A stretch of DNA of 64,000 nucleotides from Novosphingobium barchaimii LL02 (GTDB lineage Bacteria > Pseudomonadota > Alphaproteobacteria > Sphingomonadales > Sphingomonadaceae). Both the position numbers and the translations under genes were made by a program. Numbering within the stretch: position 1 is the stretch's first letter; each line of letters opens with the position of its first letter. The stretch is from contig NZ_KQ130452.1 in the NCBI RefSeq assembly GCF_001046635.1, positions 918,668 to 982,667 of the forward strand. The letters are read 5' to 3'. The notes beneath the pieces were generated by a model. It worked only from the letters and a program-made list of their open reading frames with translations, did no database searches and had not been told where the DNA came from. Of the stretch, positions 6,745 through 24,832 are shown in pieces.

Positions 6745-7461
6745 TTAGCTGGCGCATTTGGGAGGTAGGCTGAACAGGTCGATGAACTTTTGCGCCAGCG
6801 CGGGGTCGCCCTCGATCCGCAGCCCGACCGTTTCCGATGCCCGTTTGCCGTAGAATGCGGCGAGAAACGGGAGCCCGGCCTCGGCAGAGAAACGCAGGTC
6901 CGGCGCGGGATCGCCCTCGGCGGCGGGATGAATTGCCAGTTCACCCGGCCCCAGCAGCGCCGTGAAATGTTTGTCACCCACAGCCAGCGCCGCTGTAAGC
7001 CGCAGATCGCCGATGCGCTGCGCCACGATCATGGTGCGCATCGAGAGCATCAGCGAGACCGGGGTGATCGGCAGCGTAGGGTCATGCAGCGTCGACCTAA
7101 CCGCCCAGCGCCCCAGTTCCTGCATCACCGGTTCAAGCGCCAGGCCCCACTCAGTCAGGCGGTAGACCTGCACCGAGGCGGGTGGCGGCAGGGTTTCGCG
7201 CCGCACGATGCCAGTCTCTTCCAGGCTCTCCAGTCGCTCGGTCAGCGTCTTGGCGCTCAGGCCCGGAAGTTCAGCGCGGATTTCTCCGAAACGGCGTGCG
7301 CCCAACATCATTTCGCGAATGATGGGGATCGCCCAGCGCTCTCCGATAAGCTCCATGGCGAAAGCCGCCCCGCATGCATCGCCATACCAGCGGCCATGCG
7401 CTCGGGCCTTTTCGCCATCTGTCGCGGATTTACCTCGTTTCGTTTCTTTTTGCAACTTCAT
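6745..7461 (-). CDS. HxlR-family transcriptional regulator
   Basis: A 238-aa DNA-binding protein with an HxlR-type winged helix at about residues 25-120. Cys30 in YGDACGAAFAMELIGERW sits where redox- or electrophile-sensing members carry their reactive Cys. The C-terminal half is a separate alpha/beta region resembling SCP2-like domains found on some HxlR proteins. It is transcribed away from the VOC/GST gene block, with 87 bp between starts, and so is the likely regulator. The ATG at 7461 has no good Shine-Dalgarno sequence; an imperfect palindrome touches it directly, suggesting a leaderless mRNA or autoregulation. The inducing signal is unknown. Confidence 0.88.
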   Translation of the reverse strand: MKLQKETKRGKSATDGEKARAHGRWYGDACGAAFAMELIGERWAIPIIREMMLGARRFGEIRAELPGLSAKTLTERLESLEETGIVRRETLPPPASVQVYRLTEWGLALEPVMQELGRWAVRSTLHDPTLPITPVSLMLSMRTMIVAQRIGDLRLTAALAVGDKHFTALLGPGELAIHPAAEGDPAPDLRFSAEAGLPFLAAFYGKRASETVGLRIEGDPALAQKFIDLFSLPPKCAS

Positions 7462-7478
7462 GGTTGCTTTTAGTTACC
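7462..7478. promoter_or_regulatory. imperfect 17-bp palindrome, candidate HxlR operator
   Basis: GGTTGCTTTTAGTTACC pairs at its ends (GGT/ACC) and inner CT/AG. It lies immediately before the HxlR gene start, in the divergent promoter region shared with the VOC gene. HxlR regulators often bind such short AT-centred palindromes near their own gene. Binding is inferred. Confidence 0.35.
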
Positions 7479-7548
7479 ACCAGAGTCACCGTCAGGCAAG
7501 AGGCGATTCGGGACATTCCGGCAAGCGCCCATCGCAAGGAGAGCACCG

Positions 7549-7977
7549 ATGACCCGCATGCTGTTCGTGAACCTGCCCGTCACCGACCTGACCCGCGCCA
7601 AATCGTTCTATTCCGCGCTCGGCTTCGTGAACGAGCCACGCTTTTCCGACGACAGCGGTGCCTGCATGGTCTGGTCCGACGCAATCTTCGTGATGATCCT
7701 CACCCATGACAAGTGGCGCACATTCACCAGCCGCCCCATCCCCGATACCGGCTCCAGCGAAGTCATGCTGTGCCTCTCATGCGAGAACCGAGACGAGGTG
7801 AACGCACTGGCCGACACCGCCGGCAGCAACGCCGGCACCGCCGATATCAATCCTTCGCAGGATTATGGCTTCATGATGAGCCGCAGCTTCGCCGACCCGG
7901 ACGGCCATGTCTGGGAAGTGATGTGGATGGACCCGGCGGCAGTTTCAGGCGAAGCTCCGGCCCAAGAGACGGCCTGA
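7549..7977 (+). CDS. VOC (glyoxalase-fold) family protein
   Basis: A 142-aa single-module vicinal-oxygen-chelate protein: MLFVNLPVTDLTRAKSFYSALGF at the start and the terminal strand SFADPDGHVWEVMWMD are family hallmarks, and the Glu before VMWMD is the usual metal ligand position. A strong ribosome binding site (AAGGAG) precedes the ATG. It is the first of ten co-directional genes and faces the HxlR regulator, so it probably opens the operon. VOC proteins act on glutathione adducts, aromatic diols or antibiotics; the substrate here is unknown. Confidence 0.88.
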   Translation: MTRMLFVNLPVTDLTRAKSFYSALGFVNEPRFSDDSGACMVWSDAIFVMILTHDKWRTFTSRPIPDTGSSEVMLCLSCENRDEVNALADTAGSNAGTADINPSQDYGFMMSRSFADPDGHVWEVMWMDPAAVSGEAPAQETA

Positions 7978-8006
7978 ACCGCACAACAAGACAAGCGAGA
8001 GAGACG

Positions 8007-8690
8007 ATGCCGATCGATCCGAACGCCGCCCTTGAAATCACCGCTTTCGAATGGGTGCCACCCTTCGCGCAGGGGCTGGTCCGGGATTTACGACCGCGCT
8101 GGGCCTGCGAGGAATATGGCCTGCCCTACAAGGTACGCCTCATCAGCGCGGTGGAGCGGCCCACCTGGTATTTCCAGGACCAGCCATGGGGACAGGTTCC
8201 TTTCGTGCGCGACAGCGAGGTGGGAATATTCGAAAGCGGCGCCACCCTGCTGCACATCGCCGAGAAGGCCGGCGCCCTCCCCCCGGTCGGCTCGCAGGAA
8301 CGCGCCAAAGTGCTGAGTTGGCTGCTGGCCGCGTTCAACTCGGTCGAACCGTTCGTGATGGAGTTCGTCAATTGCACCGTCTTCTCCCGCAAGGAGGAAT
8401 GGGCGCAGCTGCGCAAACCCTCGCTGGTCGAGACCCTGACCGGGCGGCTGTCCAGGCTGGAAACCGCGCTCGGGGATGATGAATGGCTGGCAGGCGAATT
8501 CTCGATCGCCGACATCGCCATGGTCACCGTCCTGCGCGCCCTGCCCGACCCAGCGCTGCTGGCCGAATGCTCTACCCTTACCGCCTATGTCGAGCGTGCC
8601 ACCGCCCGCCCCGCGTTCACACGCGCACTTGAGGCGCAGCTACAACCCTTTGCCGAACATGATCCCAAGCAGCAGAAGGAAGGAGTTTGA
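8007..8690 (+). CDS. glutathione S-transferase family protein (first of three)
   Basis: A 227-aa two-domain GST: thioredoxin-like N-terminal half (about 10-85, including WGQVPFVRDSEVGIFESGATLLHIAE, with the conserved cis-Pro and the glutathione-binding E-S pair) and an all-helical C-terminal half with the N-capping motif FSIADIAMVTVL. The start ATG at 8007 follows a GAGAGA-rich leader; an upstream open frame overlaps the VOC gene and is not coding. It lies 29 bp after the VOC gene and 2 bp before the DUF1428 gene, so is probably cotranscribed with both. The electrophile partner is unknown. Confidence 0.9.
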   Translation: MPIDPNAALEITAFEWVPPFAQGLVRDLRPRWACEEYGLPYKVRLISAVERPTWYFQDQPWGQVPFVRDSEVGIFESGATLLHIAEKAGALPPVGSQERAKVLSWLLAAFNSVEPFVMEFVNCTVFSRKEEWAQLRKPSLVETLTGRLSRLETALGDDEWLAGEFSIADIAMVTVLRALPDPALLAECSTLTAYVERATARPAFTRALEAQLQPFAEHDPKQQKEGV

Positions 8691-8692
8691 CC

Positions 8693-9064
8693 ATGACCTA
8701 CGTCGACGGATTCGTGCTCGCCGTTCCCAAGGCGAACAAGGAAAAGTTCATCAAGCACGCGCAGCAGGGCGACTCGGTCTTCATGGACCAGGGCGCGACC
8801 CGCATTGTCGAGTGCTGGCAGGATGACGTGTCGCCCGGCAAGCAGACCGATTTCTTCCGCAGCGTCGATGCGAAGGAGGACGAGGCGGTGGTCTTCAGCT
8901 GGATCGAATGGCCCGACAAGGCCACGCGCGACAAGGCCATGTCGAAGATCGAGGACCTCATGAAGAGCGACCCGCGCATGAACCCCGAAACGAACCCCAT
9001 GCCGTTCGACGGCATGCGCATGATCTACGGCGGCTTCACCCCCGTCGTGACTTTGGGAGATTAG
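8693..9064 (+). CDS. DUF1428 (YbaA-like) family protein
   Basis: A 123-aa protein of the DUF1428 family, recognised by MTYVDGFVLAVP at the start, ECWQDDV, VVFSWIEWPDKATRDKA and the C-terminal FDGMRMIYGGF. The fold is a dimeric alpha/beta barrel, but no reaction is established. The ATG at 8693 is preferred over an overlapping TTG because AAGGAAGGAG lies at proper distance. It is 2 bp after the GST stop and 2 bp before the next VOC gene, so translation is probably coupled. In other bacteria DUF1428 genes also sit beside VOC and HxlR genes. Confidence 0.87.
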   Translation: MTYVDGFVLAVPKANKEKFIKHAQQGDSVFMDQGATRIVECWQDDVSPGKQTDFFRSVDAKEDEAVVFSWIEWPDKATRDKAMSKIEDLMKSDPRMNPETNPMPFDGMRMIYGGFTPVVTLGD

Positions 9065-9066
9065 CT

Positions 9067-9882
9067 ATGGGCAACCCTGTGGGCAGCTTCATCTGGTATG
9101 AACTGATGACCGGCGATGCCGATGCCGCCGCCGCGTTCTATGGCACCGTCGTGGGCTGGAAGATCGGCGCCAACGTCATGCCGGACGCGGGCATGGACTA
9201 CCGCATGATCGAGCGTATCGACGGCGGCGGCGCGGGCTGCGGCTATTCCGGCGGCGTCCTCGCCCTCACCGACGAGATGATCGGCGGCGGCGCGAAGCCG
9301 GGCTGGCTCGGCTACATCCATGTCCCCGATGTCGACGCTGAAGTTGCCGCGATCGTGGCTGAGGGCGGCGCTGTCCATATGCCTGCCACCACCATGGACG
9401 GCGTGGGCCGCATGGCCATGGTTGCCGACCCGCTCGGCGGCGCCTTTTACCTGATGACCCCGCAGCCGCCCGAAGACGATCCCGATGCGACCAGCGACGT
9501 TTTCACCGTCGATAAGCCGCAGACGATCCGCTGGAACGAGCTCGTCACCCCGGACGACGATGCGGCGGTGGCGTTCTACACAAAGCACTTCGGCTGGACC
9601 CAGGAAGGCGCGATGCCAATGGGTGAGCTGGGCGATTACCGCTTCATCCAGAACGAGGGCATCGGCATCGGCGCCGTGATGAAGAAGGCCGATTTCATGC
9701 CGGTCTCGGGCTGGGCCTATTACATCGGTGTCGACGACATCGACCGCGCCCTGGCCGCCGTAAACAACGGTGGCGGCAAGGCGATGGGGGATCCCCGGCA
9801 GATCCCCGGGGGCGAATACACCGTCCACGCATTCGACCCGCAGGGCGCCTATTTCGGGCTGGTCGGGCCAAGGGCGGGATGA
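9067..9882 (+). CDS. tandem VOC-domain protein
   Basis: A 271-aa protein with two glyoxalase-fold modules: residues about 5-135 (FIWYELMTGDADAAAAFYG ... PLGGAFYLM) and about 145-271 (WNELVTPDDDAAVAFYTKHFGW ... DPQGAYFGLVG). This layout resembles the actinobacterial CFP30B/27-kDa antigen group, whose reaction is unknown. It begins 2 bp after the DUF1428 gene. It is followed by a 76-bp gap holding a hairpin and a LexA-like box, so it may end the first transcription unit of the block. Confidence 0.88.
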   Translation: MGNPVGSFIWYELMTGDADAAAAFYGTVVGWKIGANVMPDAGMDYRMIERIDGGGAGCGYSGGVLALTDEMIGGGAKPGWLGYIHVPDVDAEVAAIVAEGGAVHMPATTMDGVGRMAMVADPLGGAFYLMTPQPPEDDPDATSDVFTVDKPQTIRWNELVTPDDDAAVAFYTKHFGWTQEGAMPMGELGDYRFIQNEGIGIGAVMKKADFMPVSGWAYYIGVDDIDRALAAVNNGGGKAMGDPRQIPGGEYTVHAFDPQGAYFGLVGPRAG

Positions 9883-9887
9883 GCAAC

Positions 9888-9909
9888 CAGGGCGGTTGAC
9901 GCCGCCCTG
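9888..9909 (+). terminator. hairpin inside the VOC/GST block
   Basis: An 8-bp perfect stem (CAGGGCGG with CCGCCCTG) and 6-base loop begins 5 bp after the tandem VOC stop. No T-run follows, so it could be a weak terminator, an attenuator or an mRNA-processing hairpin separating the two halves of the gene block. Confidence 0.4.
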
Positions 9910-9924
9910 ATGTTCCATCAATGT
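9896..9924 (+). promoter_or_regulatory. possible internal promoter of the GST block
   Basis: TTGACG (9896-9901), a 17-base spacer and CAATGT (9919-9924) resemble a sigma-70 promoter with a good -35 and weak -10. The LexA-like box overlaps the -10, as expected for a repressed promoter. The -35 lies in the hairpin loop. This is inference from pattern alone. Confidence 0.25.
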
Positions 9925-9926
9925 TC
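9912..9926 (+). promoter_or_regulatory. LexA (SOS) box candidate, GTTC-N7-GTTC
   Basis: GTTCCATCAATGTTC is an exact GTTC-N7-GTTC direct repeat, the alphaproteobacterial LexA operator, with an AT-rich spacer. It lies 33 bp upstream of the second GST start in the only sizeable gap of the gene block. If real, the second half of the block (9959-13069) would be induced by DNA damage. Confidence 0.45.
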
Positions 9927-9958
9927 CACCGATTGAAGTACACTGCGGGAGACAGCCG

Positions 9959-10585
9959 ATGGCCGACTACACCTTCTTCACGAACCCCATGTCGCGCGGC
10001 CAGATCGCCCGCTGGGCTCTGCACGAAGCTGGCGCAAAGTACGAACAGGTGCTGGTCGACTGGAAGGACAAGCCAAGCGCCTTCCTTGCCGCCAACCCGA
10101 TGGGTAAGGTGCCCACCATCGTCCATCACGTAGAGGCCGGCGACCGCGTAGTGACCGAGGCCGCTGCGATCTGCCTCTACCTCGCGGAGATGCACCCCGA
10201 GGCGGGCCTGCTCCCCAACGATGGCGAGATGGCGGACTACTACCGCTGGACGCTGTTCGCCTCCGGCCCGATCGAGCAGGCGATCACCTCGCGCGCGCTC
10301 AAGTTCGAACCCAAGCCCGATCAGGAGATGATGGCCGGCTGGGGCAGTTTCGAGCGGACAATCCACACCATCGACGAAAAGCTGACCGCCGACACCTGGG
10401 TCTGCGGAGAACGCTTCACCATGGCCGATGTCTATGTCGGCAGCGCTATCGACTGGGGGCTGACCTTCGGCATCATGCCGCCGATGCCCTCGCTGGTCGG
10501 CTATGCCGAGCGTTGCCAGGCCCGCCCCGCCTACAAGGCCGCAAAGTCCATAGACGGCAAGCTGATAGAGGAGATGAAAAAATGA
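9959..10585 (+). CDS. glutathione S-transferase family protein (second of three)
   Basis: A 208-aa GST with an N-terminal thioredoxin-like domain (MADYTFFTNPMSRGQIARWALHE region; Ser12 sits where the catalytic Ser/Cys/Tyr is expected), NPMGKVPTIV with the cis-Pro, and TEAAAICLYLAE binding the glutathione gamma-glutamyl group. The helical C-terminal half has RFTMADVYVGSAI. The gene follows the 76-bp gap carrying a LexA-like box, has GGGAG before the ATG, and overlaps the next VOC gene by 4 bp (ATGA). It may head a second transcription unit. The substrate is unknown. Confidence 0.92.
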   Translation: MADYTFFTNPMSRGQIARWALHEAGAKYEQVLVDWKDKPSAFLAANPMGKVPTIVHHVEAGDRVVTEAAAICLYLAEMHPEAGLLPNDGEMADYYRWTLFASGPIEQAITSRALKFEPKPDQEMMAGWGSFERTIHTIDEKLTADTWVCGERFTMADVYVGSAIDWGLTFGIMPPMPSLVGYAERCQARPAYKAAKSIDGKLIEEMKK

Positions 10586-11076
10586 CAGGCGTAACTAAAG
10601 CCCGCATCTGCCTTTGGTACAACGGCGACGCCGAAGATGCCGCGAACTTCTACTCAACGGTGTTCCCCGATACCCGCGTGGTTTCCGTGCAGCGATCCCC
10701 CGCCGACTATCCTGATGGCCTGTTGGGCAACGTGCTGGTGGTCGAATTCTCTGTGATGGGGATCGACTGCATCGGCCTCAACGGCGGCGACCAGTTCCCG
10801 CAGTCCGAGAGCTTTTCGTTCCAGATCGCGACCGACACCCAAGAGGAAACCGACCGCTACTGGAACGCCATCGTCGACAACGACGGGCAGGAAAGCATGT
10901 GCGGCTGGTGCAAGGACAAGTGGGGCCTCAACTGGCAGATCACCCCGCGCGCTCTCACCAATGCGATGTCCAGCCCCGACCGCGCGGCGGCGGCCCGCGC
11001 CATGCAGGCCATGATGACAATGCGCAAGATCGACATCGCCGGCATCGAAGCGGCCTTTGCGGGCGAAACGGCCTGA
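10582..11076 (+). CDS. PhnB-like VOC family protein
   Basis: A 164-aa protein of the PhnB/3-demethylubiquinone-methyltransferase-like VOC group, seen from ARICLWYNGDAEDAANFYSTVFPDT at the start, LNGGDQFPQSESFSFQ in the middle, and GWCKDKWGLNWQITP near residue 120. The C-terminal MQAMMTMRKIDIAGIEAAFAG tail is typical of the group. The start ATG overlaps the GST stop, giving translational coupling. Proteins of this kind are annotated widely but have no agreed function; the glutathione setting here suggests an adduct-processing role. Confidence 0.88.
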   Translation: MTGVTKARICLWYNGDAEDAANFYSTVFPDTRVVSVQRSPADYPDGLLGNVLVVEFSVMGIDCIGLNGGDQFPQSESFSFQIATDTQEETDRYWNAIVDNDGQESMCGWCKDKWGLNWQITPRALTNAMSSPDRAAAARAMQAMMTMRKIDIAGIEAAFAGETA

Positions 11077-11083
11077 TCCCGCC

Positions 11084-11482
11084 ATGGGCGTCGAACTCAA
11101 CCACACCATCGTCTGGTGCCGCGATCGTCAGGTCTCGGCTGACTTTTTCGCCGCAATCTACGGCTTGGCCGAACCGTTCGACCTGTTCCGCTTCCGCGTG
11201 GTCAAACTGGCGAATGGCGTATCGCTCGATTTTGCGGAAAAACACGGGCTGGTCGCGCCCCAGCACTATGCAATGCTGGTCGACGAAAGCACCTTCGACG
11301 CCGTTCTCTCACGCATCGAAGCACGAGGACTGACGTACTGGGCCGATCCCATGCGCACCCGCGCAGGCGAGATCAATCGAAACGACGGCGGCCGCGGCCT
11401 CTACTTCGAAGACCCGGACGGTCACGTCCTCGAAGCCCTGACCGTGCCTTACGGCGGATTTGCACGAAAGGATGAGGGATGA
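11084..11482 (+). CDS. VOC family protein, small
   Basis: A 132-aa single VOC module: MGVELNHTIVWCRDRQVSADFFAAIYGL with an early His ligand candidate (His7), and the closing strand GLYFEDPDGHVLEAL with the Glu ligand. The ATG at 11084 is chosen over an upstream TTG that would overlap the preceding gene. It lies 7 bp after the PhnB-like gene and overlaps the third GST by 4 bp, so the three are translated from one message. The presence of His and Glu positions suggests a metal-binding enzyme rather than a binding protein. Confidence 0.87.
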   Translation: MGVELNHTIVWCRDRQVSADFFAAIYGLAEPFDLFRFRVVKLANGVSLDFAEKHGLVAPQHYAMLVDESTFDAVLSRIEARGLTYWADPMRTRAGEINRNDGGRGLYFEDPDGHVLEALTVPYGGFARKDEG

Positions 11483-12132
11483 CCCTCGCACTCTACGGCC
11501 ACCCCTTCTCGTCCTACACCTGGAAGGCTCGAATCGCGCTGCTTGCGGCCGAGCTGGACCACGAATTCCTGATTCTCGACGCCGACCATCCCGAACATGC
11601 GCAAGCCGTTCGATTTGCCGGACCTCAGGGCAAGTTCCCTGTGCTGCGCGACGGCGAGAACCTGCTGTTCGAGGCTACCTCGATCATCGAATATCTCTCC
11701 GTCCACCACGCCCCTGCCGACATGCTGGTCCCGTCGGACCCGGACGCAGCGATTGGAATCAGGATGATGGACCGGGTCTTCGACAACTACGTCATGGGCC
11801 CCATGCAGGACGTCGTGAACGAATACCTTCGGGACGGTGACAACCCCGACACGGTGCGGGTTGCCGAAGCCCGCGCCCGGCTGGAACGCAGTTACGCATG
11901 GCTGGAAGGCTGGCTGCATTTCTATCCCGAGATGGATTACGTCACCCTGATCGAATGCGCCGCCGCGCCGTCGCTGTTCTATGCCGACTGGGTTCACCCG
12001 ATCCCCGAAGCCCTGCCGCGCCTGCGCGAGTGGCGCGCCCGCCTGCTCAGCCTGCCCGCCGTGCGCACCTGCGTCGAGGAAGCGCGCCCCTACCGCGCCG
12101 GCTTCCCGCTCGGCGCTCCTGACAGAGACTGA
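11479..12132 (+). CDS. glutathione S-transferase family protein (third of three)
   Basis: A 217-aa GST: MTLALYGHPFSSYTWKARIAL opens the thioredoxin-like domain (Ser11/Ser12 at the active-site position), PQGKFPVLRDG holds the cis-Pro, and LLFEATSIIEYLS holds the glutathione-binding Glu-Ala-Thr. The helical C-terminal half reads DYVTLIECAAAPSLFYADWV. ATGA overlap with the VOC gene upstream; 11 bp before the SRPBCC gene. It differs from the other two GSTs at the active-site segment, so the three are not recent copies and may handle different substrates. Confidence 0.91.
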   Translation: MTLALYGHPFSSYTWKARIALLAAELDHEFLILDADHPEHAQAVRFAGPQGKFPVLRDGENLLFEATSIIEYLSVHHAPADMLVPSDPDAAIGIRMMDRVFDNYVMGPMQDVVNEYLRDGDNPDTVRVAEARARLERSYAWLEGWLHFYPEMDYVTLIECAAAPSLFYADWVHPIPEALPRLREWRARLLSLPAVRTCVEEARPYRAGFPLGAPDRD

Positions 12133-12143
12133 AGGAGAAACCG

Positions 12144-12593
12144 ATGTCCAACGAACTGTCGATCACACGCCTCATCGCCGCGCCTCCGGCAAAAGTCTGG
12201 GATGTGCTGGCGGAACGGCAGAACGAATGGTGGTGCCCGGTTCCGTGGCGCGCCGAAGTCGACCATCAGGACCGCCGCCCCGGCGGTGTCTGCAAGATGA
12301 CGATGTACGGCCCCGAGGGCGAAGTGATGCCCCAGAACGGCATGTACCTCGCCTATGACGAGGGCCGCCGCTTCATCACCACCGACGCCGTGGTCGACGA
12401 TTTCCAGCCAAACGGCCCTTTCATGATCGGCATCTGGGAAATCGCCCCGGAAGGCGAAGGCACCCGCTATACCGCCACCGCCCGCCACTGGACGGAGGAC
12501 ACCATGAACCAGCACGCAGAAATGGGCTTCACCGAAGGCTGGACCGCCTGCGCCGACCAACTCGCCGCCATCTGCGAGAACGAAGCGGGATGA
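12144..12593 (+). CDS. SRPBCC (AHSA1-like) family protein
   Basis: A 149-aa START/Bet v1-fold protein of the AHSA1-like group: ISRLIAAPPAKVWDVLAE-type opening, RPGGVCKMTMYGPEG, and the amphipathic C-terminal helix MNQHAEMGFTEGWTACADQLAA. The fold binds hydrophobic ligands; some members are cyclases or hydrolases. A good ribosome binding site (AAGGAG) precedes the ATG. It overlaps the GFA gene by 4 bp. Its place in a GST/VOC operon suggests binding or conversion of a hydrophobic electrophile or its conjugate. Confidence 0.88.
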   Translation: MSNELSITRLIAAPPAKVWDVLAERQNEWWCPVPWRAEVDHQDRRPGGVCKMTMYGPEGEVMPQNGMYLAYDEGRRFITTDAVVDDFQPNGPFMIGIWEIAPEGEGTRYTATARHWTEDTMNQHAEMGFTEGWTACADQLAAICENEAG

Positions 12594-13069
12594 CCACCCT
12601 CGAGGGCGGCTGTTCCTGCGGTGAAGTGCGCTATCGCCTGCTCGGCGCCCCGATCGTCGTCCACTGCTGCCATTGCAGGGCGTGTCAGCGCGAATCGGGA
12701 GCATCCTTCGCCCTCAACGCGGTGATCGAGGCTCACCGGGTAGAAACCCTCAGCGGCGCGCCGGAATGCGTGGACACTCCTTCCGAAAGCGGCAAAGGCC
12801 AGGCAATCTTGCGCTGCCGTTCGTGCCGGGTCGCCCTCTGGAGCCATTATGGCGGGCCCGGCCCGGCCGCCAGTTTCGTGCGCGTCGGCACGCTCGACGA
12901 TCCCGATGCCTGCCCCCCGGATGTCCATGTGTTTGCCCGTAGCCGTCAGAAGTGGGTGAAGATTCCCGAAGGCGCCGAAAGCTATGAGATTTTCTATTCC
13001 GGCAAGGACGTGCCGCGCATCTACGGCGAAGAAGGCGCGGCCCGCTGGCGCGCCGTCATGGGCCGCTAG
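12590..13069 (+). CDS. GFA family zinc protein (Gfa/CENP-V fold)
   Basis: A 159-aa protein of the glutathione-dependent formaldehyde-activating enzyme family. Zinc ligands are visible: GGCSCG near residues 7-10, HCCHCRACQ near 25-33 and the CRSC pair near 75-78. The founding member, Paracoccus Gfa, speeds formation of S-hydroxymethyl-glutathione, though most relatives lack a proven reaction. It is the last gene of the co-directional block and ends 1 bp before the convergent J-domain gene. Together with three GSTs it strengthens the view that the block handles glutathione conjugates. Confidence 0.9.
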   Translation: MTTLEGGCSCGEVRYRLLGAPIVVHCCHCRACQRESGASFALNAVIEAHRVETLSGAPECVDTPSESGKGQAILRCRSCRVALWSHYGGPGPAASFVRVGTLDDPDACPPDVHVFARSRQKWVKIPEGAESYEIFYSGKDVPRIYGEEGAARWRAVMGR

Positions 13070-22067: not shown

Positions 22068-23357
22068 TCAGCCTTTCACGAGCGTCACTTGCGAGACCTC
22101 GATACCGCCGCCCAGAAAGCCGCCTTCGCAGTACATCAGATAGTACCGCCATAACTGCACGAAACGCTCGTCAAAGCCGCTCGGCAAGCGCCCTTCCTCC
22201 ACCGCGATGTCGAAGTTGCAGCGCCATTGGCGCAAAGTCCGGGCATAGTCGGCCCCGAAATTATGCTGGTCTTCCCATGACAGCCCCCGCTCGGCGGCAA
22301 GTGCGCGGAACTCACTCTCCTTGATAAGCATCCCGCCGGGAAACACGTATGTCTGGATAAAATCCGCGCTGGCGGCATAGCGCTCGAAGATTTCATCGCG
22401 GATCGAGATGTACTGGATACCGGCACGGCCACCGGACCGCAGATTGCGCGCCACGCAGTCGAAGAAATCGGGCCAGTAGTCACGTCCCACCGCCTCCACC
22501 ATCTCGACGGAGGCGATCGCGTCGTACCCGCCATGGACGTCGCGGTAATCCTGTTTGCGAAAGTCCACGCTACCGGCGTCGAGCTTCCAGCGAGAGCGGG
22601 CATAGGCCAGTTGTTCGTCCGACAGGCTGATGGCATCGACGTGGACACCCTGATTACTGGCGAGAAACGCCGCCAGAGTACCCCAGCCGCAGCCGATCTC
22701 GAGCACCTTGTCGCCCTCTGCCAGTTCCAGCCGCTCGATGATCGCGGCTACCTTGTCCGACTGTGCGCAGTCCAGTTCGGTAACGAACTGACTGTAGGCG
22801 TTGGGCCCAACCTCAATGTCGGAATAAAGCGCGCTGGAATAGATCATCGTCTCTCCCAGCCACGCCCGGTAGAAGTCGTTGCCGAGATCGTAGTGGGCAT
22901 GGATATTCTTCAGCGAACCGGCGCGGGAATTGCCGTTAAGGCCGTGCAGCATCCTGCCCAGCAGCCGCCATGGACCATGGGCCCGGGCGACGCCGCCCAG
23001 CGCCGCGGCATTGGCCATGAACAGCGCAAACAGCGGCACCGGGTCGGGGCTGTCCCACTCTCCCGCAGCCCAGGCCTGATACCAGCCCACTGAGCCCCCC
23101 GTCGCCAGCCGCAGCAGCGCACGCCAGCTCCTTAGTTCAACGACAGCGTCAAAACCCGCATTGCGGCCGCCTAGCAGCCGCGTCTCTCCGCCAGGCAATG
23201 TCGCCATGATGGAACCGGTTTGCAGGCCTCGATCGATGCGGTCGAGGATCTTGTGAACCCCGCCCGACCACAGCCGCGCAAGCCATTGCGGCCCGGCGCC
23301 GATCCGCCGTCCGCGTCCAACCAGATCGCCGCCTCGGCCCGATACGTGAGCATTCAT
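22068..23357 (-). CDS. cyclopropane-fatty-acid synthase family methyltransferase
   Basis: A 429-aa SAM-dependent enzyme of the CFA synthase family, which adds a methylene bridge to (or methylates) double bonds of membrane phospholipid acyl chains. The SAM-binding motif is VLEIGCGWGTLAAFLA, preceded by IHAHYDLGNDFYRAWLGETMIYSSALY, the family substrate-site signature, and followed by SVEMVEAVGRDYWPDFF. The N-terminal 130 residues form the lipid-binding part. ATG at 23357 is chosen; no Shine-Dalgarno sequence is visible, so it may be leaderless. It lies 57 bp after the photolyase gene, with a LexA-like box in that gap. Confidence 0.92.
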   Translation of the reverse strand: MNAHVSGRGGDLVGRGRRIGAGPQWLARLWSGGVHKILDRIDRGLQTGSIMATLPGGETRLLGGRNAGFDAVVELRSWRALLRLATGGSVGWYQAWAAGEWDSPDPVPLFALFMANAAALGGVARAHGPWRLLGRMLHGLNGNSRAGSLKNIHAHYDLGNDFYRAWLGETMIYSSALYSDIEVGPNAYSQFVTELDCAQSDKVAAIIERLELAEGDKVLEIGCGWGTLAAFLASNQGVHVDAISLSDEQLAYARSRWKLDAGSVDFRKQDYRDVHGGYDAIASVEMVEAVGRDYWPDFFDCVARNLRSGGRAGIQYISIRDEIFERYAASADFIQTYVFPGGMLIKESEFRALAAERGLSWEDQHNFGADYARTLRQWRCNFDIAVEEGRLPSGFDERFVQLWRYYLMYCEGGFLGGGIEVSQVTLVKG

Positions 23358-23364
23358 GGCGCAT

Positions 23365-23393
23365 GATATGAACGCGAATCGAACCCTCGGCAA
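23365..23393 (-). promoter_or_regulatory. possible promoter of the CFA-like gene
   Basis: On the minus strand TTGCCG (23393-23388), a 17-base spacer and CATATC (23370-23365) resemble a sigma-70 promoter. A LexA-like box fills the spacer. Transcription would start next to the ATG, in line with the missing ribosome binding site. Pattern inference only. Confidence 0.25.
23370..23384 (-). promoter_or_regulatory. LexA (SOS) box candidate, GTTC-N7-GTTC
   Basis: On the minus strand the site reads GTTCGATTCGCGTTC, an exact GTTC-N7-GTTC repeat, 13 bp upstream of the CFA-like gene. It is in the intergenic gap behind the photolyase gene. The spacer is less AT-rich than in typical sites, so it is weaker support than the other two boxes. 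Confidence 0.38.
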
Positions 23394-23414: not shown

Positions 23415-24791
23415 CTAATCTGCTTTCGCTTTCTGCCAGGCTGCGAGCGCCCGCTCCCTTGCTGTCCGGTGGTCAACCAGCCGGTCGGGGTATTCCTTTG
23501 GCCGGGATATCGGCGAAGGATCGTGGATTTCGCCATCGGGCAAGCCGCCCAGTTCGGGCACCCATTCCCGAATATAGCCAGCGCAATCAAACTTCTCGGA
23601 CTGGGAGAGCGGCGCCATTATCCGCACGAACATGTTGGCATCGACGCCGGAACCCGCAGTCCACTGCCAGTTCACCGCATTGGAGCCATAGTCGGCATCG
23701 ACGAGCGTGTCCCAGAACCACTTCTCGCCCTCACGCCAGTCGACCAGCAGGTGCTTTACAAGAAAACTCGCGGCGATCATGCGCACGCGGTTATGCATCC
23801 AGCCGGTGTGCCAAAGCTGGCGCATCCCGGCATCGACAATAGGATAGCCGGTGCGGCCCTGCTGCCACGCGGCGATCTGCGCGCTCACCTCGCCGCCGCT
23901 GCGCCACGGAAAATCGTCAAAGGGTTCCCGCGCCGGTTTGGCGCCATAGTCGGGATATTGGAGGATCACATTCTGGGCATAGTCGCGCCAGCCCAGTTCA
24001 CCCAGGAAAGTGCCTACCGTGCCACCGGCATCGGCCACCGAATGCCATATCTGCGCCGGCGAGATCTCGCCAAAATGGAGATGCGGGGATAGCATCGACG
24101 TGCCCTCCACCGCCGGGAGGTTACGCTGCCTCTCGTAGGCGGAGGCTTCTTCAATGAAAGCATGAAGCCGCTTTTTCGCACCGGCCTCGCCCGGTTCCCA
24201 CGTATCGCGCATACCGCCCGCCCAGTCAGGTTTCGTGGGAAGCAGCGCCCATTCCTTCAGGTTGTCCGACCGGGGCCATGAAGGCGGGGCTGCTATCACT
24301 TGGGGGCGGCGCGCCGGCGGCGGGGGCGGCAGGCGTTCGCGCAAGGTTCGCCAGAACGGGGTGTAAATCTTGTAGAGCCCACCCGCACCCGTGGTCACCG
24401 AACCAGCGGGCGCAAGGTAGTTACCGTGGTGCAGGCATAGCTGTGTATGCTTGGCCACGGCCTTCTCGGCATTACGCCACCACGGTTCGTAGTGATGCAA
24501 AGCGTGGATCTCCCTGGCGCCGGTTTCCTCGGCCAACTGTGCCAGCACATCTTCGCTCCTGCCTCGGCGCAGGATCAGCTGCGAGCCTTTCTCCCGCAGC
24601 GCCGCATCAAGGCTGGCCAGTGAGTGATGCAGCCACCAGCGAGAAGCGCCGCCCATGGCACGGTGCCGGGGCGTTTCGTCATCCAGGACGTAGACCGGAA
24701 GCACGGGGCCTTTTCGAGCGGCCTCGGCAATGGCAGGCTGGTCGGACAGACGAAGGTCGCGCCGCAGCCAGACGATGACAGGGGAATTCAT
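23415..24791 (-). CDS. phrB: deoxyribodipyrimidine photolyase (class I)
   Basis: A light-driven DNA repair flavoprotein splitting UV-induced pyrimidine dimers. The 458-aa product begins MNSPVIVWLRRDLRLSDQPA (antenna domain) and ends with the FAD-binding half: GRTGYPIVDAGMRQLWHTGWMHNRVRMI, VDWREGEKWF, and DADYGSNAVNWQWTAGSG, whose Trp/Asn set matches CPD photolyases. A cryptochrome role cannot be excluded by eye. The ATG at 24791 gives the canonical start. It is divergent from the PAP2 gene across 41 bp and lies upstream of the CFA-like gene, a pairing common in proteobacteria. Confidence 0.95.
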   Translation of the reverse strand: MNSPVIVWLRRDLRLSDQPAIAEAARKGPVLPVYVLDDETPRHRAMGGASRWWLHHSLASLDAALREKGSQLILRRGRSEDVLAQLAEETGAREIHALHHYEPWWRNAEKAVAKHTQLCLHHGNYLAPAGSVTTGAGGLYKIYTPFWRTLRERLPPPPPARRPQVIAAPPSWPRSDNLKEWALLPTKPDWAGGMRDTWEPGEAGAKKRLHAFIEEASAYERQRNLPAVEGTSMLSPHLHFGEISPAQIWHSVADAGGTVGTFLGELGWRDYAQNVILQYPDYGAKPAREPFDDFPWRSGGEVSAQIAAWQQGRTGYPIVDAGMRQLWHTGWMHNRVRMIAASFLVKHLLVDWREGEKWFWDTLVDADYGSNAVNWQWTAGSGVDANMFVRIMAPLSQSEKFDCAGYIREWVPELGGLPDGEIHDPSPISRPKEYPDRLVDHRTARERALAAWQKAKAD

Positions 24792-24832
24792 GGACACGCA
24801 ACGCCTTTTCAACAAGCGCGTTCCCTAGACCA

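Follow-up and report, generated by a model that had tools for sequence, protein, structure and literature searches.

We sought to explain the control and purpose of a gene cluster in a 64,000-nucleotide stretch of the Novosphingobium barchaimii LL02 genome (contig NZ_KQ130452.1, positions 918,668 to 982,667, hereafter the window), where an HxlR-type regulator gene diverges from ten same-direction genes for glutathione transferases (GSTs), vicinal oxygen chelate (VOC) proteins and other small enzymes. With slightly better than even confidence, we read it as a chemical-defence operon distributed at the level of the family Sphingomonadaceae, whose members live in soil and water; it would clear reactive electrophiles and related genotoxic small molecules under two layers of control. 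Read from its sequence, the locus presents a conserved mosaic gene set, mostly in a slot between cobS and a DnaJ-domain gene; a predicted YodB-like divergent regulator that has an SCP2-like domain and an invariant cysteine; between regulator and operon, a near-palindrome and a GANTC site, both conserved; and a putative LexA (SOS) box before the middle GST gene, GST2. What is new is the control of the operon. The initial annotation of this DNA had neither the LexA box nor the GANTC site, and it mentioned no SCP2-like domain and no exchange of HxlR for TetR.

The cluster order is VOC, GST, DUF1428, tandem VOC, GST, PhnB-like VOC, VOC, GST, SRPBCC and GFA-fold (Table 1), with intergenic gaps of 29, 2, 2, 76, -4, 7, -4, 11 and -4 bp, and with 87 bp between HxlR and VOC1. 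The 76-bp gap ahead of GST2 holds TTGACG followed by GTTCCATCAATGTTC. The latter has the form GTTC-N7-GTTC, which is the LexA box of Caulobacter according to excerpts of PMC12700426 and PMC9578287. Our main sample for comparison was the best 80 of 278 loci found by similarity to GST2, which is therefore present in all of them by selection. These came from Novosphingobium (58), Sphingomonadaceae (11), Sphingomonadales (3), Sphingomonas (1), Caenibius (1) and six metagenome bins with broad or odd labels (Pseudomonadota 4, Proteobacteria 1, Actinobacteria 1). Since several loci with G handles are the same genomes as named loci (e.g. L151, L109), the locus sets overlap in part and are not independent, and related genomes do not count as independent events. 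At most 150 nt upstream of GST2, GTTC-N7-GTTC occurred in 39 of the 80 loci, against 15 of 2000 random stretches. The same count gave no box for VOC1 (41 genes), GST1 (38), PhnB-like (53), GST3 (59), SRPBCC (64), GFA (22), VOC3 (13) or hisG (55), one for DUF1428 (1/69) and three for the tandem VOC gene VOCt (3/63). All 39 boxes fell in the 55 loci where GST2 is preceded by 50 nt or more, and none in the 25 tightly packed loci. Where there was that much room, the box was found in 25 of 31 loci with HxlR, 11 of 13 with TetR and 3 of 11 with neither. Judged by these counts by gene and by regulator, the predicted box has been retained repeatedly, in association with GST2 and under either regulator. 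Of two laboratory species among the loci, N. resinovorum (L074) has the box and N. naphthalenivorans (L078) has none. In 38 of the 39 boxed loci TTGAC lay no more than 30 nt upstream of the box, compared with 24 of 2000 random 30-nt stretches, and the spacing was most often 16 nt (24/39).

A second sample, chosen by cobS, took in 20 genomes out of the 26 that remained in the same genus code, most of them lacking a DUF1428 match in the slot; there the box stood at 4 of 7 GST2 genes, some of them in genomes shared with named loci. Other genera of the family were represented by 20 of 69 Sphingomonadaceae genomes with a GST3 match, mostly the higher-scoring ones, and the box was present at 4 of 8 GST2 genes (L173, L174, L179, L186), with GST2 last in the operon each time. 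Single boxes also preceded GFA (L177) and GST3 (L190) in these genera. As positive controls in relatives, the box was found upstream of recA in 9 of 10 loci and of lexA in 10 of 10. Its distance from the lexA match was 36 to 107 nt and from the recA match about 140 to 190 nt (the value for L262 was adjusted for its short flank). A LexA model matched in 11 of 11 relatives. The element has the same form as before the relatives' recA and lexA and in Caulobacter, and differs from the alphaproteobacterial LexA regulon in its target, which here is a GST with small-molecule enzymes.

Box-like sequences were also seen elsewhere in the window. A GAAC-N7-GAAC box, GAACGCGAATCGAAC, lies at 23370-23384 at the start of a CMAS-type methyltransferase open reading frame (22068-23393, minus strand) and could be there by chance; a DNA photolyase gene (23415-24815) adjoins this methyltransferase gene. 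Near the window edge, a LexA-type box, GAACGTTTGGAGAAC, occupies positions 44-58, downstream of the minus-strand gene recR (756-1598).

The slot that holds the cluster has cobS on one side and a DnaJ-domain gene on the other, with hisG-hisD next in many loci. Both flanks were found in 59 of the 80 loci, cobS only in 15 and DnaJ only in 6. The gene order of the window was kept in 70 of 80 loci and the enzyme genes were all on one strand, with the sole exception of a GFA match far downstream in L113; order and strand together show that the clustering exceeds chance. The nearest genome, G001, carries nine of the ten genes in the same place at 91 to 98% identity, without GFA. Among the 59 two-flank loci we counted SRPBCC in 48, GST3 in 45, VOCt in 44, DUF1428 in 43, PhnB-like in 37, GST1 in 34, VOC1 in 32, GFA in 19 and VOC3 in 10, with HxlR in 38 and TetR in 14. 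The number of enzyme genes per locus ranged from one to eleven, and apart from the selection gene GST2 no enzyme was common to all loci. HxlR was the regulator in 44 of the 80 loci and TetR in 21, and the two never occurred together. The simplest occupied slots read cobS-GST2-DnaJ (L115, L143).

Leaving aside L157, which at 1.7 kb is too short to judge, the cobS-based sample gave 19 readable slots, 15 with at least one of the ten families, 3 with another GST alone and one (L167) with none. In the other genera at least three further cluster enzyme genes were present in 17 of 20 loci, a number that L176 reaches by a doubled DUF1428; L180 had one further gene, and L184 and L190 had none. The initial annotation had named a failure to find conserved clustering in other genomes as grounds for refutation, and clustering was found, both in the main sample and in the other genera. 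Outside the family the cluster was present in none of 20 cobS slots from six other families of the order, where cobS lay directly beside a DnaJ match in 7 and had no nearby DnaJ match in the other 13. A class-wide search of 240 genomes gave a DUF1428 match in 27, G001 included; we examined 20 of the other 26 and did not find the full gene set in these 20 loci; in 9 of them at least two further families of the cluster lay close by, with regulators and DUF899 included in the count. We conclude from these sequence comparisons that the gene set is a conserved, presumptively family-level mosaic operon in one slot.

The small HxlR clusters of L245 and L252, from other families of the class, hold DUF1428, PhnB-like and VOCt genes (and VOC1 in L245). 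Both have a sequence resembling the near-palindrome (box A) at the HxlR start, with CGAGTCG in L252 and no GANTC there in L245. In relatives, additional genes lie within the operon or next to it, among them a DHFR-like RibD_C gene, a DUF899 gene and a PhyH-like one (L064:11642-12355, L063:10383-11111, L038:6742-7509), the last labelled a PhyH-type oxygenase by appearance, unconfirmed. A plasmid or other mobile origin was considered and rejected, because a tblastn search of plasmids with GST2 (E up to 1e-40) gave 7 records, all below 60% identity, and the G+C content of the cluster (0.638) is close to that of its flanks (0.634 and 0.661).

Bacillus HxlR regulators of the YodB/CatR/HypR type have quinone or electrophile detoxification genes as targets. 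The HxlR protein of the window matches PF01638 at 76.4 bits (cut-off 20.8), and C30 is invariant in 16 of 16 aligned sequences. Its AlphaFold2 (AF2) model, with a mean pLDDT of 81.1, was matched by Foldseek and VIA-align to YodB, quinone-bound YodB included, HypR, alkylsulfatases and UbiJ-SCP2, and in the Foldseek alignment the winged helix is 44% identical to YodB. The modelled protein is thus a predicted YodB-like winged helix fused to an SCP2-like domain. It shares with YodB, CatR and HypR the winged helix, a conserved N-terminal cysteine and the position facing detoxification-type genes, whereas the SCP2-like C-terminal domain, the ten-gene GST/VOC operon, the promoter GANTC and the exchange for TetR set it apart from them. 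The simplest account is a defence against reactive, partly genotoxic chemicals, in which the operon would work like a YodB/CatR-type electrophile regulon with an SOS input. Of the 21 TetR-type operons, 20 were examined upstream of TetR, the row for L117 being unused (contig edge). ACC-N-AC-NN-GT-N-GGT stood just upstream of TetR in all 20, and PaaR-controlled promoters have its core ACCGACCGGTCGGT as their inverted repeat, according to an excerpt of PMC2770484. The TetR of L064, the sole TetR protein scanned, met no NCBIfam cut-off (AcuR model, 50.4 of 247 bits).

The upstream promoter region was compared in the HxlR-type loci. With a loose regular expression, box A was found in 38 of 45 loci (the window and 44 others) and in 12 of 13 loci of other genera; a stricter pattern occurred once each in 3 of 13 genomes, always at this operon, and was absent from the remaining 10. 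GANTC was present in 44 of 45 regions between HxlR and the first enzyme gene. Among loci with box A, it stood 30-62 nt away in 35 of 38 and, for the other genera, in all 12, together 47 of 50, a count that leaves out the loci without box A by regular expression (7/45, 1/13); in the window CGANTCG stands about 40 nt on. The middle base was T in 29, A in 10 and G in 8, and the flanks were C..G in 43 of 47. Control counts were 63 of 1600 for random 32-nt stretches (16 of 1600 for CGANTCG), 6 of 37 upstream of hisG and 2 of 39 upstream of DnaJ. GANTC was the commonest gapped pattern in the region, the runner-up reaching 31 of 50, and the extended motif is conserved across orthologous operons. CcrM has GANTC as its site, and for activation by GcrA an extended motif, YGAKTCG or YGAKTCK, has been proposed (excerpt of PMC7987155); position effects of GANTC sites are treated in PMC4287350, also seen as an excerpt. 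The GcrA model (PF07750) matched 28 of 31 relatives and the RAMA domain PF18755 of CcrM-type proteins 20 of 21, the nearest genome included. The GcrA control search matched Sulfolobus too, and a bare GcrA match is therefore no proof. The motif and both protein types are shared with GcrA/CcrM promoters of Caulobacterales, from which the locus differs in that a detoxification operon follows. Methylation control of the upstream promoter is plausible on sequence grounds. In G001 a CcrM-type RAMA gene (G001:C1:2112791-2113087) lies about 33 kb from the operon.

An alternative that concerns this single step, and whose likelihood stands beside those of the readings of the whole operon, is that GANTC is a palindromic contact of another DNA-binding protein, with no methylation switch. 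The conserved C..G flanks are those that a CGA-N-TCG protein site would have, and TetR-type operons mostly lack GANTC near TetR (present in 2/20). Against this, the site is kept around a variable middle base, relatives have genes of CcrM and GcrA type, and the sequence equals the reported extended GcrA motif (excerpt of PMC7987155). We regard a simple protein contact as a real possibility, somewhat short of even.

The enzymes were compared with solved structures and family models. The nearest structure to VOC1 is 4gym (131 bits) and to the PhnB-like protein 1u69 (236 bits); VOCt, beside its match to the Rv0577 structure, reaches 74 of 250 bits with the KbpA model. GST1 is nearest to AtuGSTH1-1 (2ycd), with 3lq7 alike. 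R26, present in at least 95% of 40 sequences, aligns with the catalytic Arg34 of that enzyme and F14 with Phe22, whereas V17 stands for Ser25 and A178 for Arg187. Since these last two residues are not kept, we call GST1 Eta-like only. AtuGSTH1-1 is described, in an excerpt of PMC3319563, as having no classic Ser/Tyr/Cys, an essential Arg34 and very high peroxidase activity on organic hydroperoxides. Ser12 and Glu67 of GST2 are invariant in 19 of 19 aligned sequences, and S11, S12 and E65 of GST3 are conserved among 59. VOC3 is related to ChaP-type proteins of chartreusin biosynthesis (146.6 bits to ChaP-H1, 6a52; 114 to 120 to ChaP) and shares their His/His/Glu set, with H7, H61 and E117 conserved in 14 sequences and probably binding metal. 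ChaP works with flavin-activated oxygen (excerpt of PMC12281474); in contrast to that setting, the ten genes here include no polyketide or flavin genes. No VOC protein reached an NCBIfam cut-off, VOC1 and the PhnB-like protein having no NCBIfam match at all, and the FosA model gave VOC3 28.4 and 28.8 bits (cut-off 250). The GFA-fold protein keeps its cysteines in 23 sequences and scored 20.2 bits with the S-(hydroxymethyl)glutathione synthase model TIGR02820 (cut-off 234.55). In view of these scores and conserved residues, the GSTs probably use glutathione, and such use is not supported for the other enzymes.

We propose that HxlR represses its own gene and the operon and would be released by a hydrophobic or thiol-reactive ligand. 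LexA would repress the internal promoter before GST2, a role that we infer from the box, and DNA damage would therefore raise GST2, PhnB-like, VOC3, GST3, SRPBCC and GFA but not the four genes ahead of them. At the upstream promoter, methylation of GANTC by CcrM would have a modulating effect. The enzymes would act in parallel on different substrates, not as one chain, which we favour because the gene content is mosaic.

Much of this mosaic content would also be expected if unrelated small stress genes had accreted in a permissive slot, sharing promoters and having no common substrate or purpose. Both the range of enzyme genes per locus and the way in which RibD_C, DUF899 and the PhyH-like gene drop in agree with accretion. 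We judge it unlikely, at a level that still deserves attention, given the kept order, the single strand and the start-stop overlaps, together with small clusters elsewhere in the class that combine these families with TetR or HxlR (9/20 loci). A different proposal came from the initial annotation, in which glutathione enzymes handle one electrophile and then its adducts in an ordered pathway. Such a pathway would suit three GSTs alongside VOC and GFA-fold proteins in one operon. However, the formaldehyde-glutathione synthase and FosA models score far below cut-off, VOC3 is nearest to ChaP-type proteins and not to a glutathione lyase, and only the selection gene is in every locus; the mosaic content, with VOC3 and GFA rare in the two-flank loci, argues against an obligatory ordered pathway. 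These comparisons do not support the sequential scheme, and we give it very little credence. We give slightly less still to an operon for the catabolism of an aromatic or lignin-type compound, as with the LigE/F/G GSTs of sphingomonads. The host group degrades aromatics and LigF (4xt0) appears in the match lists of GST2 and GST3, but these matches are weak (32.5 and 22.7 bits), the ten genes include no transporter, ring hydroxylase or dehydrogenase, and an SOS box would be unexpected on such an operon.

For the chemical-defence operon we count the conserved set and order, the absence of the cluster from the cobS slots sampled in other families, the LexA box with its controls, the GANTC excess, the GcrA and RAMA matches in relatives, the likeness of the regulator to YodB and that of GST1 to AtuGSTH1-1. 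Several observations weigh against it. The exact LexA box is missing from 16 of the 55 loci with room (the small slots L115, L134 and L143 among them), and 25 loci have no room for it; a consensus promoter scan found none within the cluster. Three of 38 box A loci (L109, L116, L125) have no GANTC there, and excerpts of PMC7987155 report that the extended motif by itself predicts GcrA control poorly and that Brevundimonas has no extended preference. The conserved H53, E71, H120 and E123 of VOC1 have a putative role only, and an evident conserved His/His/Glu set is found in VOC3 only. By analogy with YodB and HypR, Cys30 may be the sensing cysteine, and it presumably sits one residue off Cys6 of YodB. 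SOS control names no substrate, and the case as a whole is argued from sequence.

A more far-reaching account, which we offer tentatively and at clearly less than even confidence, is that sphingomonads made small-molecule detoxification part of the SOS response. The operon would then respond to two kinds of danger: the HxlR-SCP2 sensor, with a CcrM-gated promoter, would detect an electrophile or lipid-like ligand, and LexA, acting on a GST-led distal module, would report DNA damage. The genotoxin would be attacked during repair, maybe timed to replication, and the ligand sensor would have been exchanged (HxlR, TetR, none) as GST2 retained its SOS input.

Most descriptions of SOS regulons centre on DNA repair, mutagenesis and the control of division, and one Caulobacter SOS paper reportedly mentions a GST once. 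In the open-licence literature we found no published account of such a GST/VOC operon or of its SOS link. The word 'glutathione' is absent from the main text of both Caulobacter papers on the LexA box (PMC12700426, PMC9578287), and the excerpt of a spaceflight fitness paper on N. aromaticivorans (PMC10725011) holds nothing tied to the locus. In anoxic Sphingopyxis granuli, SOS genes and one GST-like protein are induced (excerpt of PMC6472365); the GST gene is not identified there, and we do not use this as evidence.

The features are collected in Table 1. The gene row of three GSTs, four VOC proteins (one tandem), DUF1428, SRPBCC and GFA facing HxlR, with gaps of -4 to 76 bp, is as the initial annotation gave it, and profile matches bear out its detoxification-type families and HxlR regulator. 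The coordinates 7462..13069 begin just past the HxlR start codon, and the feature should take in the regulator and its promoter. The candidate HxlR promoter (7472-7499) was not picked up by the consensus promoter scan; if it is right, the HxlR message would be near-leaderless.

Table 1. Genes and putative control elements of the cluster, in positions of the window.
Feature	Position	Strand	Remarks
HxlR-type regulator, YodB/HypR-like winged helix (~37-129) and SCP2-like C-terminal domain (~130-238)	6745-7461	-	PF01638 76.4 bits
Box A near-palindrome GGTTGCTTTTAGTTACC, candidate HxlR operator	7462-7478	.	abuts HxlR start codon, upstream side
Candidate HxlR promoter: -35 TTGCCT (7499-7494), 16 nt, -10 GTAACT (7477-7472)	7472-7499	-	predicted from sequence
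CGATTCG with GANTC (CcrM) site; fits extended GcrA motif YGAKTCG	7504-7510	.	
VOC1, single-domain VOC protein	7549-7977	+	PF00903, PF22677
GST1, Eta-class-like GST	8007-8690	+	~171 bits to 3lq7 and 2ycd
DUF1428 protein	8693-9064	+	PF07237 145.4 bits
VOCt, tandem VOC protein, Rv0577-related	9067-9882	+	3oxh 89.9 bits
TTGACG, candidate -35 of internal promoter ahead of GST2	9896-9901	+	
Putative LexA/SOS box GTTCCATCAATGTTC (GTTC-N7-GTTC)	9912-9926	+	
GST2, invariant Ser12 and Glu67	9959-10585	+	
PhnB-like VOC protein	10582-11076	+	PF06983 147.1 bits
VOC3, ChaP-like VOC protein	11084-11482	+	6a52 (ChaP-H1) 146.6 bits
GST3; S11, S12, E65 conserved	11479-12132	+	
SRPBCC/AHSA1 protein	12144-12593	+	PF08327 71.9 bits
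GFA/CENP-V-fold protein, conserved cysteines	12590-13069	+	PF04828 99.8 bits

DNA-damage control is not usually expected for detoxification-type genes. If our reading is true, a conserved LexA box on a GST-led operon extends the SOS response to removal of the damaging chemical itself, in a host group that is used to clean up aromatics. The DUF1428, PhnB-like VOC and AHSA1/SRPBCC families, whose role is obscure, would gain a candidate genotoxic-stress setting with two candidate operators, and mitomycin C is the proposed inducer of this candidate genotoxic-stress operon.

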